From an uncultured Eubacteriales bacterium (GTDB lineage Bacteria > Bacillota > Clostridia > Christensenellales > Borkfalkiaceae), in the NCBI GenBank assembly GCA_902767225.1, contig CACXGN010000003.1, positions 1 through 64,000 of the forward strand: a DNA stretch of 64,000 nucleotides, in the 5' to 3' direction. The translations under genes and the position numbers were made by a program. The notes under the pieces were generated by a model. The model was not told the DNA's origin. It saw nothing but the letters and a program-made list of their open reading frames with translations, and made no database searches. Position 1 is the first letter of the stretch, and each line of letters starts with the position of its first letter. Below are positions 17,863 through 25,512 of the stretch, one piece after another.

Positions 17863-17905
17863 GTAAATTTTTTAAAAGTTTTTTTAAAAATGTTTTAAAA
17901 AACAG

Positions 17906-17935
17906 TTGATAAAAATACTTTCGCTATGTTATAAT
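17906..17935 (+). promoter_or_regulatory. Promoter of the uracil leader/uraA/upp unit
   Basis: TTGATA (17906-17911), an 18-bp spacer and TATAAT (17930-17935). Transcription should start near 17942, only a few bases before the AAGGAG of the leader peptide. Confidence 0.75.
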
Positions 17936-17963
17936 CGGTATCGAAAGTTAAGGAGATATGCAA

Positions 17964-18077
17964 ATGAAAGGTTTTGTTTCTAAAATTTGTAAATCACAAT
18001 TTGAAATAGAAACAGTATCCCTTTTAAAGCCTTCGTCTTCCTTAATCTCTTTATCTTCTTTATCAGTTAATAATTGA
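17964..18077 (+). CDS. Leader peptide of a putative pyrimidine attenuator
   Basis: This 37-aa frame follows AAGGAG with an 8-base gap; an in-frame ATG at 17958 is too close to that site. The second half is encoded by pyrimidine-rich DNA: in 18021-18060, 32 of 40 bases are C or T and 21 are T. The TGA stop (18075-18077) overlaps the first two bases of the terminator stem that precedes the uracil permease gene. This is the layout of the E. coli pyrL leader, where low UTP slows polymerase and lets the ribosome block the terminator. The function is inferred from layout; the sequence is not homologous to PyrL. Confidence 0.65.
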   Translation: MKGFVSKICKSQFEIETVSLLKPSSSLISLSSLSVNN

Positions 18078-18105
18078 AGTTCCATTTTTTGGAACTTCTT
18101 TTTTT
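18076..18105 (+). terminator. Attenuator-type terminator before uraA
   Basis: GAAGTTCC (18076-18083) pairs with GGAACTTC (18091-18098) around a 7-base loop, followed by seven T residues. It lies between the leader peptide stop and the uraA ribosome site, so readthrough is needed to express uraA unless a further promoter exists. Confidence 0.8.
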
Positions 18106-18142
18106 AAGAAAAACTTGAAGAAAAAATTTTGGAGGTATCAAA

Positions 18143-19584: not shown

Positions 19585-19614
19585 TTATCTTGCCCGAAAT
19601 TTCGGGCAAGATAA
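19585..19614. other. 15-bp perfect palindrome between uraA and upp
   Basis: Bases 19585-19599 and 19600-19614 are exact inverted repeats (arm TTATCTTGCCCGAAA) and would form a strong RNA hairpin. No T tract follows, and the upp ribosome site AAGGAG lies about 11 bases downstream. It may stabilise or process the mRNA, or act as a partial attenuator. Confidence 0.5.
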
Positions 19615-19635: not shown

Positions 19636-20274
19636 ATGAAAGATTATAAAAACGTTCATATTTTAGACCACCCGCTGATTCGCCACAAACTCGCGATCAT
19701 CAGAAATAAAAACACGGACACCAAAAACTTCCGTGAAATAATAGGGGAAATCGCTACCCTTATGGCGTATGAAAGCTTTAAAGACGTTCCCACTCAGGAA
19801 ATCGAAGTAGAAACACCGCTTGAGAAAACCAAGCAGATAGTAGTTAAAGAAAACTCCATAGCGATAGTTCCTATTCTTCGTGCGGGGCTCGGCATGGTAG
19901 ACGGAATTTTAACTCTTTTCCCCGCGGCAAAAGTTGGTCATATCGGACTTTACCGTGACGAAGAAACGTTGGAACCGCAGGAATATTACTGCAAACTTCC
20001 CACCCATATCGACGAAAAAGTGGTTATGGTAGTAGATCCTATGTTAGCAACGGGCGGCAGCGCTTGCGACGCGATCAAAATGCTTAAAAAACGCGGTTGC
20101 AAACGTATAAAACTTATGTCTATAATAGCCGCTCCGGAAGGCGTAGAAAAGGTTGCGGAAACTCATCCCGACGTTGAAATTTACGTTTCCACGTTAGATA
20201 GATGCTTAAACGAAAACGGGTATATTCTTCCCGGTCTCGGCGACGCCGGCGACAGAATTTTCGGAACGAAATAA
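19636..20274 (+). CDS. upp: Uracil phosphoribosyltransferase
   Basis: This 212-aa enzyme converts uracil and PRPP to UMP and pyrophosphate in the cytoplasm. The 13-residue PRPP loop lies in [12 protein letters not shown], and the uracil-binding end [13 protein letters not shown] is present. I start it at ATG 19636 after AAGGAG, giving a standard Upp length and N-terminus ([14 protein letters not shown]); a TTG 21 bases upstream is not needed. It pairs with UraA for uracil salvage and is followed by a terminator. Confidence 0.96.
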
Positions 20275-20412: not shown

Positions 20413-21702
20413 ATGAATTTCAATTTACTTCACCCTGCAGAACAAATCGTTATGCTTATCAACAGGGTATACCAAAAGGGTCTTACCACCACTTCGGGCG
20501 GAAACCTTTCGATACTTGACAGCGACGGAAACATCTGGATAACTCCTTCCGGTATCGATAAAGGATCTTTAACTCCTTCCGATATATGTAAGGTATTGCC
20601 CGACGGCACGGTTATCGGTAAATACAAACCGTCCGTTGAACTTCCTTTCCACAGAAAGGTTTACGAAATGCGTCCGGACGTATCCGCAGTTTTGCACGCG
20701 CACCCACCGGCACTTGTTAGTTACAGTTTGATCCGTAAAATACCGGAAGTAAACATCATACCTAACCCGCACTACGTTTGCGGAAAAGTAGGTATCGCCA
20801 AATACGAAGTTCCGGGATCAGACGCTCTCGCAACCAGAATAGTTGACGAGATCAAAAAAGGTCTTAACGTGGTAGTTATGGAAAACCACGGCGTTATTTG
20901 CTGTGCGAATAACTTATTCGAAGCGTTCAAGCGTTTTGAAACGTTAAACTTTGCGGCGGATATCGGCATCACCGCGGCTATGCTCGGAAAAGCCGACGTT
21001 TTAACCGACGAACAGATCGAAACATACGGCACGAAAGGCAAAGTCGTTTTAGACGAATTCGTTCCGAAAGTTTATAGTTCGGACGAAAGAAGATTAAGAA
21101 AGGAAATGTGTGCTTTAATCCGCAGATCTTACGATCAGGGACTCTTTACCAGCACGCAGGGAACTTTCTCGGTTCGTCTTTCAAAGGATAGTTTCCTTAT
21201 CACGCCTTGCCACGTTGATAGAAAGTATATTGATCCCGAAGACATCGTTCGTATCGATAACGGCAAGTGCGAAGCAGGTAAAAAGCCCAGCCGTTCGGTT
21301 CTTTTGCATAAACGCATATTCGACGATCACCCCGAGATCAACGCGATCACCGTTGCGCACCCCAAACACCTTATGGCGTTCGGTATCACGCACACGCCCA
21401 TCGATTCCAGAACTATTCCGGAATCATACATTTCGATGAGAGATATCGTAAGATTGCCTTTCTGCACCAACGTGTTAGAGCCCGAAAAAGTATCGGCAAG
21501 CATATCTTCTCACTCGCCGGTTATAATGGTGGAAAACGACTGCGTTATAAGCACGGGGAACTCTCTTATCAACGCGTTCGATAGGTTAGAAGTTGCGGAG
21601 TTCACCGCAAACACAATTATCCACGCTAAAATGATAGGCGATATCGTTATGATAAGCGATAAAGAAGTTGAAGACATAAACGTTGCCTTCCACCTTGACT
21701 AA
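20413..21702 (+). CDS. Tandem class II aldolase/adducin protein
   Basis: This 429-aa protein has two class II aldolase/adducin domains, about 1-205 and 222-429. The first has the catalytic set of fuculose-phosphate-type aldolases: Glu in SVELPFH, the zinc pair in LHAHPP and the third His in ENHGV. In the second these become RSVLLH, TVAHPKH and ENDCV, so the Glu, one of the paired His and the third His are lost. The second half is therefore probably structural or regulatory. Substrate is unknown; a sugar-phosphate such as L-fuculose-1-P or a ribulose-type substrate would fit. It has its own promoter and a terminator shared with the convergent ger operon. Confidence 0.82.
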   Translation: MNFNLLHPAEQIVMLINRVYQKGLTTTSGGNLSILDSDGNIWITPSGIDKGSLTPSDICKVLPDGTVIGKYKPSVELPFHRKVYEMRPDVSAVLHAHPPALVSYSLIRKIPEVNIIPNPHYVCGKVGIAKYEVPGSDALATRIVDEIKKGLNVVVMENHGVICCANNLFEAFKRFETLNFAADIGITAAMLGKADVLTDEQIETYGTKGKVVLDEFVPKVYSSDERRLRKEMCALIRRSYDQGLFTSTQGTFSVRLSKDSFLITPCHVDRKYIDPEDIVRIDNGKCEAGKKPSRSVLLHKRIFDDHPEINAITVAHPKHLMAFGITHTPIDSRTIPESYISMRDIVRLPFCTNVLEPEKVSASISSHSPVIMVENDCVISTGNSLINAFDRLEVAEFTANTIIHAKMIGDIVMISDKEVEDINVAFHLD

Positions 21703-21744: not shown

Positions 21745-22959
21745 TTACTTTTGTCCAGTTACGTTTACTTTGACGCTATATTGAAGTTTATTTAAATAGG
21801 TTTCTTTATATTTTTTATAGTATTTATTATGATAGCGGTAAAGGCTTTCTTTTATGCTGAAAAAGTCGCAACCGGTATTTATCGAAGATTTAATCAGCGC
21901 GTTTAAACTTTTTCCGAATTTTTGTTCTGCGGCAAGTTTAACGGAGACGGGGAGAGTCTGGTTTTTTTCGTAAGTTGCGTCTGAACTCGAAGAATTCAGA
22001 TCGCTTATCTTACAGTATAGGTCGAGAGAAACAGAAAGTTTAACCGCGGTATCGCTTGCCGATATTTCTATTTTCGGGACGCACCGCTTAATTGTCAAAA
22101 GATAGTTTCTTTCTTCTCCGTCTTCAACAACGTTATTCACTTCGAAAGTCGTGTTATAGAAATCTTCGTAAAGCGAATTTCTCGCAAACGTTTCTTCTTT
22201 ATTCAGCGTGCCTACTAAATATCCGTTTTTATATAGCGCCGTGGTCGTCGCGTCGAAAACCACGGGCTTTTCTTTCTGCTGTTCTCCGCTGCTTTGTCCG
22301 CCGCCGTTACTACCGTTACCGCCGTTACCGCCGGAACCGCCGGAAGAGCTTTCTTCTTCGACGATTTTTATTATCGGCATAAATGAAGATCCGCACGGGG
22401 AATAATACCCCGAACAAAAGGTCTTAACGTCAACCTCTGCTATATCCATATCGAACCCAGGGTTTTTGAATAGTATTTTTTGAAGGGCGAAGGCGGAGAT
22501 ATTGTCAAGCGGCGTTGTCTTTTCCAAAATTTCTTTTGCGGTCTTTTCACTCTTAATAACAAGTGCCGAATCCTGCACTCTGAGCGTTTTTGAAAAATAA
22601 TCCAAAACTTTTATAACGTTAGTCCCGTCCAGCCCGTTTCCTATGATTATAATATTGCAAAAGGCAAGCTTTGGAAACCAGCCCGAAACGTCACCGATAT
22701 TTTTGAGCGCCGAGCCTACCGTGTTTCCTTTTCCGCTAACTTGGGCCTTTTGATTTTCGGTATTTATTTGCCTTGCTTCGGGAACGGCTATTTGCGCCGT
22801 TATTTCATATTCGTATTCTCCCGACTCGTCGGTATCCAACGCCAGCGCAGTTATAATAGCGGTCTTTTCTATATCTATAAGTCCGAAGTCGTTTGAAAAG
22901 AAGAATATAAACAAGAGCAAAAATGCAAAGATAAATATTTTAGCTTTGATAAACCGCAT
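21745..22959 (-). CDS. Ger(x)C-type spore germination protein without lipobox
   Basis: This 404-aa protein is the C subunit of a GerA-type nutrient germinant receptor in the spore inner membrane. IDIEKTAIITALALD after the leader and the C-terminal GerAC domain are typical. Family members are usually lipoproteins with Cys-Trp-Asp at the cleavage site; here the corresponding place reads FFSND, so the Cys is absent and the N-terminal helix probably serves as anchor. A Gly/Ser/Asn-rich linker lies at about 202-224. AGGAG precedes ATG 22959, which overlaps the end of the B gene by 20 bp. Confidence 0.85.
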   Translation of the reverse strand: MRFIKAKIFIFAFLLLFIFFFSNDFGLIDIEKTAIITALALDTDESGEYEYEITAQIAVPEARQINTENQKAQVSGKGNTVGSALKNIGDVSGWFPKLAFCNIIIIGNGLDGTNVIKVLDYFSKTLRVQDSALVIKSEKTAKEILEKTTPLDNISAFALQKILFKNPGFDMDIAEVDVKTFCSGYYSPCGSSFMPIIKIVEEESSSGGSGGNGGNGSNGGGQSSGEQQKEKPVVFDATTTALYKNGYLVGTLNKEETFARNSLYEDFYNTTFEVNNVVEDGEERNYLLTIKRCVPKIEISASDTAVKLSVSLDLYCKISDLNSSSSDATYEKNQTLPVSVKLAAEQKFGKSLNALIKSSINTGCDFFSIKESLYRYHNKYYKKYKETYLNKLQYSVKVNVTGQK

Positions 22960-24064
22960 TTTTTTTCTCCTTTTTTGGTTTGATTTCGACTGCGTTTTTA
23001 TCTTTTTTTATTATAAGCAACGGGGCACAGCACGGAAGAATTACAGACATAAATATATAATAATAACCCGCGTAGTTTAATATAAAGTCTTCGATACTTT
23101 TATAATATTCCGAAAATACCGTTATAAGTATCGTCTCTATGCCGATCAAAACAAGAATGGTTATCCACTTGCGCTTTATATCTATAAGTTTGCAAAGTAT
23201 CTTCGAGCAAAAGAACACGGGAAGCGCCGCGCCTATCACGTTTGAAAGAAGAATACAACTTATTCCGAAGTAGTCGAATCGTTCAAGGTTATTTATTACC
23301 GTGGTGTATTTGGAAGTTTCGGTTAGGGCGTAGCGTTGGCGGAAAGATATATAGGTAAATACGCTGTAAAATACCAAAATGAACAAAAGCGTCATAATAC
23401 AAGAGATAACATATGAAAGCGAAAGTTTGATACGGTCTTTTTTGCCGAACTTAAATTCGCCTATAAAAAAGGCGAAATACACCGCGTCGCCGAACCAGTT
23501 GATCGATTTATAAGAACCTTTAATGATGTTCGTAAATCCGTTTGCGCCTATCGGAAGAACGGAGGCAAGGTCAAGGTTATTTATCGATAAGGCTATCAAA
23601 AGGACGTAGCCTATAAGCGTTATCAAAAAGAACACGTCCGCCGCCCTCCCTAAAATACGCAGTTTTTTCACGCAAAGAAAGAACGCGGCGATAAAAAACG
23701 GCAAAAAGTAGAATACGTTTTGGGCATTTAAATAAATAGTGGACTCTACGTATTCTTTCTGTTCGTAAATCGATAGAACCGACTTTAACAGAAAATATAT
23801 AACGTATAGTATCAAAACTATTTTAGACAGCGTTTTTCCGAGCGAACGGGAAAGAAGGGTATAGATATTTGCGTCAGACTTTTTCGCAACGTATAGCAAA
23901 ACCGAAAATACGGCAAAGTCAATAAGAATATTTATAAGCACCGATATCCAACAGTCTTCGCCCGTGATTCCCGCTATAACGCTCGGCATCATAAAGAATT
24001 TACCGAGCGGCAAAAACGCTATAAAAAAAAGACAAATTTGCCGTGTTTTTAACTGATATTCCAT
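22940..24064 (-). CDS. GerAB-type spore germination permease-like protein
   Basis: This 374-aa protein of the amino acid/polyamine permease superfamily has about ten hydrophobic segments and forms the B subunit of a germinant receptor, thought to bind the germinant. GRAADVFFLITLIGY near the middle is characteristic. I start it at ATG 24064, which has GGAGTG at the right distance, rather than GTG 24070, which overlaps the A-gene stop. It is the middle gene of an A-B-C operon, which is the standard order. Confidence 0.87.
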   Translation of the reverse strand: MEYQLKTRQICLFFIAFLPLGKFFMMPSVIAGITGEDCWISVLINILIDFAVFSVLLYVAKKSDANIYTLLSRSLGKTLSKIVLILYVIYFLLKSVLSIYEQKEYVESTIYLNAQNVFYFLPFFIAAFFLCVKKLRILGRAADVFFLITLIGYVLLIALSINNLDLASVLPIGANGFTNIIKGSYKSINWFGDAVYFAFFIGEFKFGKKDRIKLSLSYVISCIMTLLFILVFYSVFTYISFRQRYALTETSKYTTVINNLERFDYFGISCILLSNVIGAALPVFFCSKILCKLIDIKRKWITILVLIGIETILITVFSEYYKSIEDFILNYAGYYYIFMSVILPCCAPLLIIKKDKNAVEIKPKKEKKNAVYQS

Positions 24065-24066
24065 AA

Positions 24067-25512
24067 TCACTCCGTCATTTTATCCACTTTAAGTCTTCTT
24101 TTGTTTCTGTTTTTAATTGACTTCGGGCGGGAAGAAGTCTCTAACATAAATCCCTTATATATTCCGTCTTTTAGATCTTCTTTAACTATCGGCGAAAATG
24201 GTGCGAATATGGGCGTGCCGAAGTTCTCGAACGAAATAAGATATATTAACAAGATAGATAGCGCGACGATTATTCCGTATCCGCCGATAGAACCGCCTAT
24301 AATTAAAAATATCAGTCTTAAAAGGGAAAATGTCTGTTCTAATTCCGGCACGGTATAAAGGCATATCCCCGAAAAGGCTATTATCATCAAGGCGGGGGCG
24401 GATATTATTCCGGCGTTTACAGCCGTTTCACCTAAAACCAGCGCGCCTACAATCGATACGACCATACCAACGTATCTCGGCATGCGAAGACTTGCTTCGT
24501 TTAATATCTCGAATATCAAAAGAGTAAAGAACATCTCGTAACTTGGGGATAGCGGTATACCCTTAATACTGTTTACTATCGTAAGCAAAAAAGAAAGGGG
24601 GATAAGTTGAAGGTGAAATAGTTCCGCGGCGACGAATACTGCCGGCAGCAACATCGATATCAAAACCGAAATAAGCCTTAAAACGCGCATAAAGGTAGCG
24701 GTATACGGCGAATTATAGTAGTCGCTCGGGCTTTGAAAGTCTTCGATAAGAAGATAAGGGACAGTAAGAACGATGGGCGAACCGTCAACTAAAATCGCCA
24801 CCCTTCCTTCCAAAATCTTTGCGGCAAGGATATCGGGCTTTTCGGTGTTTCCCACTTGCTTAAATATCGACGATTTCTTTTCACCCAAATATTTAGAAAC
24901 GTATGAAGAATCTAATAAGGCGTCTATATTGATATTTTGAAGCCTTTCTTTTAAAGAAGAGACTAGTTTTTTGTCCGCGATACCGTCTATATAGCAAAGG
25001 CAAAGTTGCGTATTAGAATAGTTGCCAATGTTAATGTTTATGAATTTAAGACTTTCGGTCTTTAACTTTCTGCGCATAAGCGAAACGTTTACCTGCAAAC
25101 TTTCCACAAACCCTTCTCTGGGCCCTTTTATGACCGAAGAAGTGGGTGGTTCGGTGATCGCCCTTTTTTCAAACATTTTAAGCCCGAAAGACAGGGCGTA
25201 GGTAAACCCGTCGACAAGCAGCACAGTGTTTCCGCCGACAACTTCGGCGGCGGTTTTTTCTATGGTAGAAACAACCTTTTTTTCCGCGCTTAAAAAGGTA
25301 TCGAAAAGTTTTTTACCCGTGAGGCTTCCCTTTAACGAATTAAGCGGCTTAATGATAAATTCGCCTATCCCATGCTTATCGACGATATCTTTTATAAAAA
25401 CGAGCGTGGCTTTTTTATTCGCCGCAGATAGAGGTAAATATTCAACGTCATCCGAATTTAATATTTCTCTTAATTTATCTGCGGTGTTTTCCGATTTTTT
25501 CGATAATGGCAT
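24067..25512 (-). CDS. GerAA-type spore germination protein
   Basis: This is the A subunit of a germinant receptor, 481 aa from ATG 25512. The soluble N-terminal half is followed by about five membrane segments. Typical pieces are LLVDGFTYALSFGLK, EPPTSSVIKGPREGFVE, GRVAILVDGSPIVLTVPYLL and LSPSYEMFFTLLIFEI. A TTG at 25548 extends the frame by 12 residues but overlaps the likely promoter and lacks a ribosome site. Even ATG 25512 has no clear Shine-Dalgarno site and may be read from a leaderless message. Confidence 0.88.
   Translation of the reverse strand: MPLSKKSENTADKLREILNSDDVEYLPLSAANKKATLVFIKDIVDKHGIGEFIIKPLNSLKGSLTGKKLFDTFLSAEKKVVSTIEKTAAEVVGGNTVLLVDGFTYALSFGLKMFEKRAITEPPTSSVIKGPREGFVESLQVNVSLMRRKLKTESLKFININIGNYSNTQLCLCYIDGIADKKLVSSLKERLQNINIDALLDSSYVSKYLGEKKSSIFKQVGNTEKPDILAAKILEGRVAILVDGSPIVLTVPYLLIEDFQSPSDYYNSPYTATFMRVLRLISVLISMLLPAVFVAAELFHLQLIPLSFLLTIVNSIKGIPLSPSYEMFFTLLIFEILNEASLRMPRYVGMVVSIVGALVLGETAVNAGIISAPALMIIAFSGICLYTVPELEQTFSLLRLIFLIIGGSIGGYGIIVALSILLIYLISFENFGTPIFAPFSPIVKEDLKDGIYKGFMLETSSRPKSIKNRNKRRLKVDKMTE

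Follow-up and report, generated by a model that had tools for sequence, protein, structure and literature searches.

The leader upstream of uraA and upp

The window, by which we mean the whole stretch of 64,000 nucleotides analyzed here, lies on contig 3 of a genome that measures 1.24 Mb and is 98.8% complete. The locus under study comprises a putative promoter, a short leader frame, an intrinsic terminator, and two genes for uracil uptake and salvage, arranged as follows.

17906-17935, + strand: putative promoter, with TTGATA (17906-17911), an 18-nt spacer, TATAAT (17930-17935), and TG before the -10 box; 11 of 12 consensus matches
17950-17955, + strand: Shine-Dalgarno sequence AAGGAG of the leader frame
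17964-18077, + strand: leader frame of 37 codons, with ATG at 17964 and TGA at 18075-18077
18021-18060, + strand: pyrimidine-rich tract, 32 of 40 nucleotides C or T, including 21 T; proposed region of UTP/CTP-dependent pausing
18076-18105, + strand: intrinsic terminator, a stem-loop (18076-18098) followed by seven T residues, its 5′ arm overlapping the leader stop codon
18143-19558, + strand: uraA, NCS2-family uracil permease, assigned from profile matches under the curated cut-offs
19636-20274, + strand: upp, uracil phosphoribosyltransferase, over the cut-off for NF001097 and TIGR01091

The promoter, the AAGGAG, the 37-codon frame, and the downstream uraA and upp genes were all found where a sequence-only reading of this DNA had placed them, and its count for the tract proved exact. 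That reading had also given the terminator a T7 run, which is present, and an 8-bp stem, which folding replaces with one of 9 pairs (−11.8 kcal/mol, z = −4.8); the overlap it described between the TGA and the stem amounts to 2 nt. An alternative in-frame ATG at 17958 would give 39 codons, but it lies merely 2 nt from the AAGGAG. At least 32 C or T residues are reached by 0.03% of 40-nt segments in the 54.7 kb of coding sequence of the window; taking the best 40-nt stretch from randomly drawn 37-codon pieces gives P = 0.003. The permease assignment was made from scores of 293.7 bits against NF007995 (PRK10720 uracil permease; curated cut-off 477) and 274.7 against TIGR00801, just under its cut-off of 291.8.

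Promoter-like hexamers occur at the equivalent place in related uraA loci. The putative start region directly 3′ of TATAAT reads CGGTATCGAAAG and is free of the T or C run that serves as the criterion for pyrimidine control by reiterative initiation, as scored on a start site that is itself predicted. Runs of T and A directly 5′ of the promoter (17868-17905) recur at many related uraA loci and may constitute an UP element. Between uraA and upp, at 19585-19614, lies a perfect inverted repeat (TTATCTTGCCCGAAA / TTTCGGGCAAGATAA) that has no T run and is perhaps a processing or stabilizing hairpin. Just 3′ of upp, a 429-aa frame (20413-21702) encodes a single protein with a tandem pair of class II aldolase-like domains. 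It is followed on the minus strand, at 21745-24070, by two adjacent frames of membrane or secreted type that resemble spore germination proteins, GerC- and GerB-like, in a genome of just the 1.24 Mb given above.

Conservation of the layout and of the nucleotides

We collected uraA from 60 relatives and read the regions upstream; the relatives with named records are uncultured Clostridia, chiefly from animal gut and rumen. The leader is real and conserved. Of the same-genus loci, 25 could be read upstream of uraA, and at 23 of these a short frame ending at a terminator precedes the gene, the 23 including one locus (L012) with a weak Shine-Dalgarno sequence assigned by eye. These frames span approximately 22 to 41 codons and stop at positions from −6 to +17 nt relative to the beginning of the stem, +1 being the most frequent value and that of the window, and nearly all related leaders carry AAGGAG or a close variant. 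A few (L012, L016, and L030) have a weak Shine-Dalgarno sequence or a weak pyrimidine bias. Under a strict test requiring a Shine-Dalgarno-led frame that ends at a terminator, 27 of 30 loci passed against 0.14 of 30 expected from dinucleotide shuffles; since these 30 loci had been preselected by the same geometry, the figure to go by is the per-locus null of 0-2%. Applied to 206 gene starts from the window and the fetched loci, the detector made 22 calls, every one of them at uraA and none elsewhere. A second match in the window's own genome (G000:C15) was rejected as a further leader, being low-complexity A/T sequence. Side by side with these, locus L014 in another family of the order (genome G047) has a strong terminator approximately 80-115 nt 5′ of uraA, within whose stem a possible GTG frame of 8 codons comes to an end; no PyrR loop was found 5′ of this uraA, and no PyrR match in the genome was over the cut-off. 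The short GTG frame may be a pared-down leader or may have no relation to it.

The sequence-only reading predicted that, if the leader senses UTP, its U-richness and the placement of its stop codon at the stem would be kept among relatives while the peptide would not, and this is the pattern we observed. Over 435 pairs, the leader peptides have a mean z of 0.39, hardly above shuffled sequences across species, close relatives excepted. Pyrimidines are more frequent in the 3′ half of the frame than in its 5′ half at 21 of 23 genus loci (P = 2e-5), at 7 of 7 more distant loci, and at 14 of 14 loci of a second, later order set (P = 0.001); the loci share descent and are not independent, so that these P values overstate the evidence, a concern partly answered by their spread over several families. 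The enrichment peaks within approximately 55 nt of the stop codon and, relative to the frame head, involves both T and C at all three codon positions. Arginine codons follow the same course, with a CGN:AGR ratio of 15:1 in the frame tails, 7:8 in the heads, and 6:59 in uraA. Judged by this comparison, selection has been shown to act on the nucleotides of the leader rather than on its peptide. The proposal of UTP sensing is supported, with a correction: the enrichment concerns C+U and not only U, which makes both UTP and CTP candidate signals.

PyrR and the translated leader at uraA

A PyrR-binding element at the site had been named as an observation that would overturn this proposal. No match to the PyrR-binding loop (RF00515) was found in the window leader even at E values up to 10, nor among 16 related loci, and a profile search of the 98.8% complete genome for PyrR gave a best match of 25.7 bits against a cut-off of 138; going by the sequence of this match, we consider it a purine phosphoribosyltransferase. 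PyrR control of the window's uraA was therefore rejected, as neither the loop nor the gene was found. In a search for riboswitches and T-boxes, the sole match in the window at gathering score was a distant tRNA, and the leader gave nothing credible at E values up to 10. There were also zero matches in the genome to aspartate carbamoyltransferase (pyrB), so that it probably depends on uracil uptake; the organism appears, from its gene content, to be unable to make its own pyrimidines.

To the wider order belong 347 surveyed genomes, 147 of them with uraA, and 80 upstream regions were read. Fifteen carry a PyrR loop, called by a regular expression pattern alone, 14 carry the translated-leader layout, none carries both, and the rest carry neither. 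PyrR is encoded in 15 of 15 genomes with the loop versus 0 of 15 with the translated leader, the latter being the 14 plus one (L243) called by eye. It is also absent from six further leader genomes of a named collection (G061-G066), and one genus (g40) shows both states, PyrR loop and translated leader, at uraA. This exchange of two terminators 5′ of uraA, one of which belongs to a pyrimidine-responsive class, is our strongest evidence, albeit indirect, for the nature of the signal.

Within the window's genus, several members with a de novo operon have PyrR-binding sites before pyrR, and eight members encode PyrR together with a translated leader at uraA, so that the leader is not simply a substitute for PyrR. 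Four PyrR-negative members with a de novo pyr operon (pyrC-carB-pyrK-D-F-E-B) have no comparable translated leader at pyrC. Terminator-like hairpins lie 5′ of pyrC at L176 (G006) and L175 (G005), in genomes with no PyrR match over the cut-off; the leader at L176 resembles a PyrR loop without matching it.

A pyrBI-type attenuator and its alternatives

We propose that uraA-upp is under ribosome-coupled transcription attenuation of the pyrBI type, a reading to which we assign a probability of about 0.74 and in which pausing, ribosome catch-up, and the response to UTP and CTP are inferred. Polymerase would start at approximately 17942, and a ribosome would soon enter the 37-codon frame. With UTP and CTP plentiful, polymerase would cross the tract fast and leave the ribosome lagging, the hairpin at 18076-18098 would fold, and transcription would stop. 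With pyrimidine nucleotides scarce, polymerase would stall in the tract and the ribosome would catch up; once at the stop codon, it would cover the 5′ arm of the stem as the hairpin is made, and uraA-upp would be transcribed. Uracil uptake is thus probably turned on by the leader at low UTP and CTP. A tract of C+U is reasonable here because UraA and Upp feed both nucleotide pools.

The E. coli pyrBI leader, PyrL, shares with the window a short translated frame, a stretch rich in pyrimidines shortly before an intrinsic terminator that can be covered by a ribosome, and a pyrimidine gene downstream (PMC4824070, PMC5021804), and in the pyrL sequence the frame, the pyrimidine-rich stretch, and the terminator follow the order of the window's parts. 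In pyrL, tight coupling across the leader is needed to prevent the terminator (PMC5021804). In E. coli, a stop codon within a few bases represses the terminator and full termination is seen beyond about 30 bp; in amino-acid attenuators, over 20 bp separate the leader from the terminator, and that of pyrBI lies inside the leader frame (PMC4824070). By these spacings, the stop-to-stem distance in the window fits direct blocking by the ribosome as in pyrBI and not the amino-acid attenuators. The two systems differ in that the pyrL frame extends across the terminator and stops shortly before pyrB, whereas the frames of the window and most relatives end at the start of the stem, and in that pyrBI encodes aspartate carbamoyltransferase, whereas the window encodes uracil uptake and salvage, in Bacillota. 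The window leader would therefore work like pyrBI without being a copy of it; the likeness would be one of function, and no sequence kinship is claimed. The E. coli rph-pyrE attenuator also has a translated frame that ends close before the terminator, with pyrimidine control through the spacing of ribosome and polymerase; its leader is a full gene, rph, whereas that of the window is a dedicated small frame. The PyrR attenuators of Bacillota (RF00515) likewise place a premature terminator before pyrimidine genes, at uraA elsewhere in this order among others, but act through binding of the PyrR protein to an RNA loop and involve no leader translation, and in the window neither loop nor protein was found. 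For Bacillota, hisZ/hisS* of bacilli were reported as the first instance of leader-peptide attenuation, and there too relatives use another sensor at homologous genes; those leaders are predicted to respond to an amino acid by means of consecutive His codons (PMC2965389), whereas we propose pyrimidine nucleotides for the window.

The main doubt concerns coupling. Bacillota are classed at phylum level as species with runaway transcription (PMC13323073), and a pyrBI-type switch needs the ribosome to reach polymerase, which would be rare under such conditions. The window genome has features that match this class, namely an encoded Rho and purine-biased genes (53.7%). Its NusG contains an Asn-Thr pair (in NTRGVTGF) which we tentatively take to occupy the place of B. 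subtilis N81/T82. N81 and T82 are the pro-pausing residues of B. subtilis NusG (PMC12288461), and NusG-linked pausing at T-rich sequence could supply time for catch-up. As a conserved signal, NusG pausing at TTNTTT was rejected, since the tracts do not exceed shuffles in the frequency of this motif.

Any change in the distance between ribosome and polymerase would act on a frame that ends on a terminator, which is all that the anatomy displays, and the leader might accordingly report the speed or availability of ribosomes, as a general sensor of translation or growth state with no special link to pyrimidines. The conserved pyrimidine tract, the confinement of the layout to uraA among the genes tested, and the mutual exclusion of leader and PyrR attenuators at uraA in the order set make this unlikely. 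Somewhat less likely again is control by Rho, in which the tract would be a Rho-loading region protected only by leader translation, with the intrinsic terminator as a backup. Rho is encoded, the genes show the purine bias of 53.7%, and B. subtilis Rho targets pyrimidine-rich RNA; its sites, however, exceed 150 nt and are high in C relative to G (PMC13323073), whereas the tract is T-rich and approximately 40-55 nt long. Moreover, a conserved intrinsic terminator already stands at the end of the frame, and Rho alone would leave the exchange with PyrR loops unexplained.

Attenuation by serine or leucine, with the ribosome stalling at Ser/Leu codons when charged tRNA is scarce and thereby altering the choice between terminator and antiterminator, appears very improbable. 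The window peptide is rich in both residues, and tails across the genus contain 18% Ser and 17% Leu, but Ser/Leu runs are missing in many relatives (for example, L015, L016, L020, L054, and L074). Conservation of these codons had been named as evidence against nucleotide sensing; instead, they are replaced by Phe, Ile, Pro, Val, and CGN Arg codons while the pyrimidines stay, and synonymous choice at Arg tracks pyrimidines. The stop codon lies at the stem, as against a terminator more than 20 bp away in amino-acid attenuators (PMC4824070), and the downstream gene is a uracil permease. A conserved antiterminator was looked for and not found: pairing between CTTC in the tract and GAAG in the stem was rejected, as at L005 and L006 the tract is nearly unchanged while the stem goes from GAAGTCC to GGAAACC. 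We give equally little credence to the idea that the tract is kept for pairing with the Shine-Dalgarno region, which would shut off late translation of the leader, rather than for sensing. Positions 17947-17957 of the window could form a duplex with 18035-18046, the leader fold has a z of −2.4, and the duplex was slightly above shuffles in a first set (P = 0.007); this excess was not replicated in an independent order set (P = 0.45), and such pairing could in any case coexist with nucleotide sensing.

In the literature searched, which covered few subscription journals, we did not come across any ribosome-coupled pyrimidine attenuator described from Bacillota. We give an even chance to the view that lineages of this phylum came by a pyrBI-type attenuator at the uracil permease gene, whether by acquisition or as their own invention, and swap it with PyrR attenuators. 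If the pyrBI-type reading is true, a phylum classed as runaway would show tight coupling of transcription to translation, locally at any rate, where a pause is built in. The leader would let one ask, in a natural system, whether ribosomes in Bacillota can catch up with RNA polymerase. One gene would then be served by two interchangeable pyrimidine sensors, a PyrR protein-RNA switch or the timing of ribosome and polymerase, which differ even within a genus, and a sensor that does without a dedicated protein would suit small genomes living on uracil salvage.
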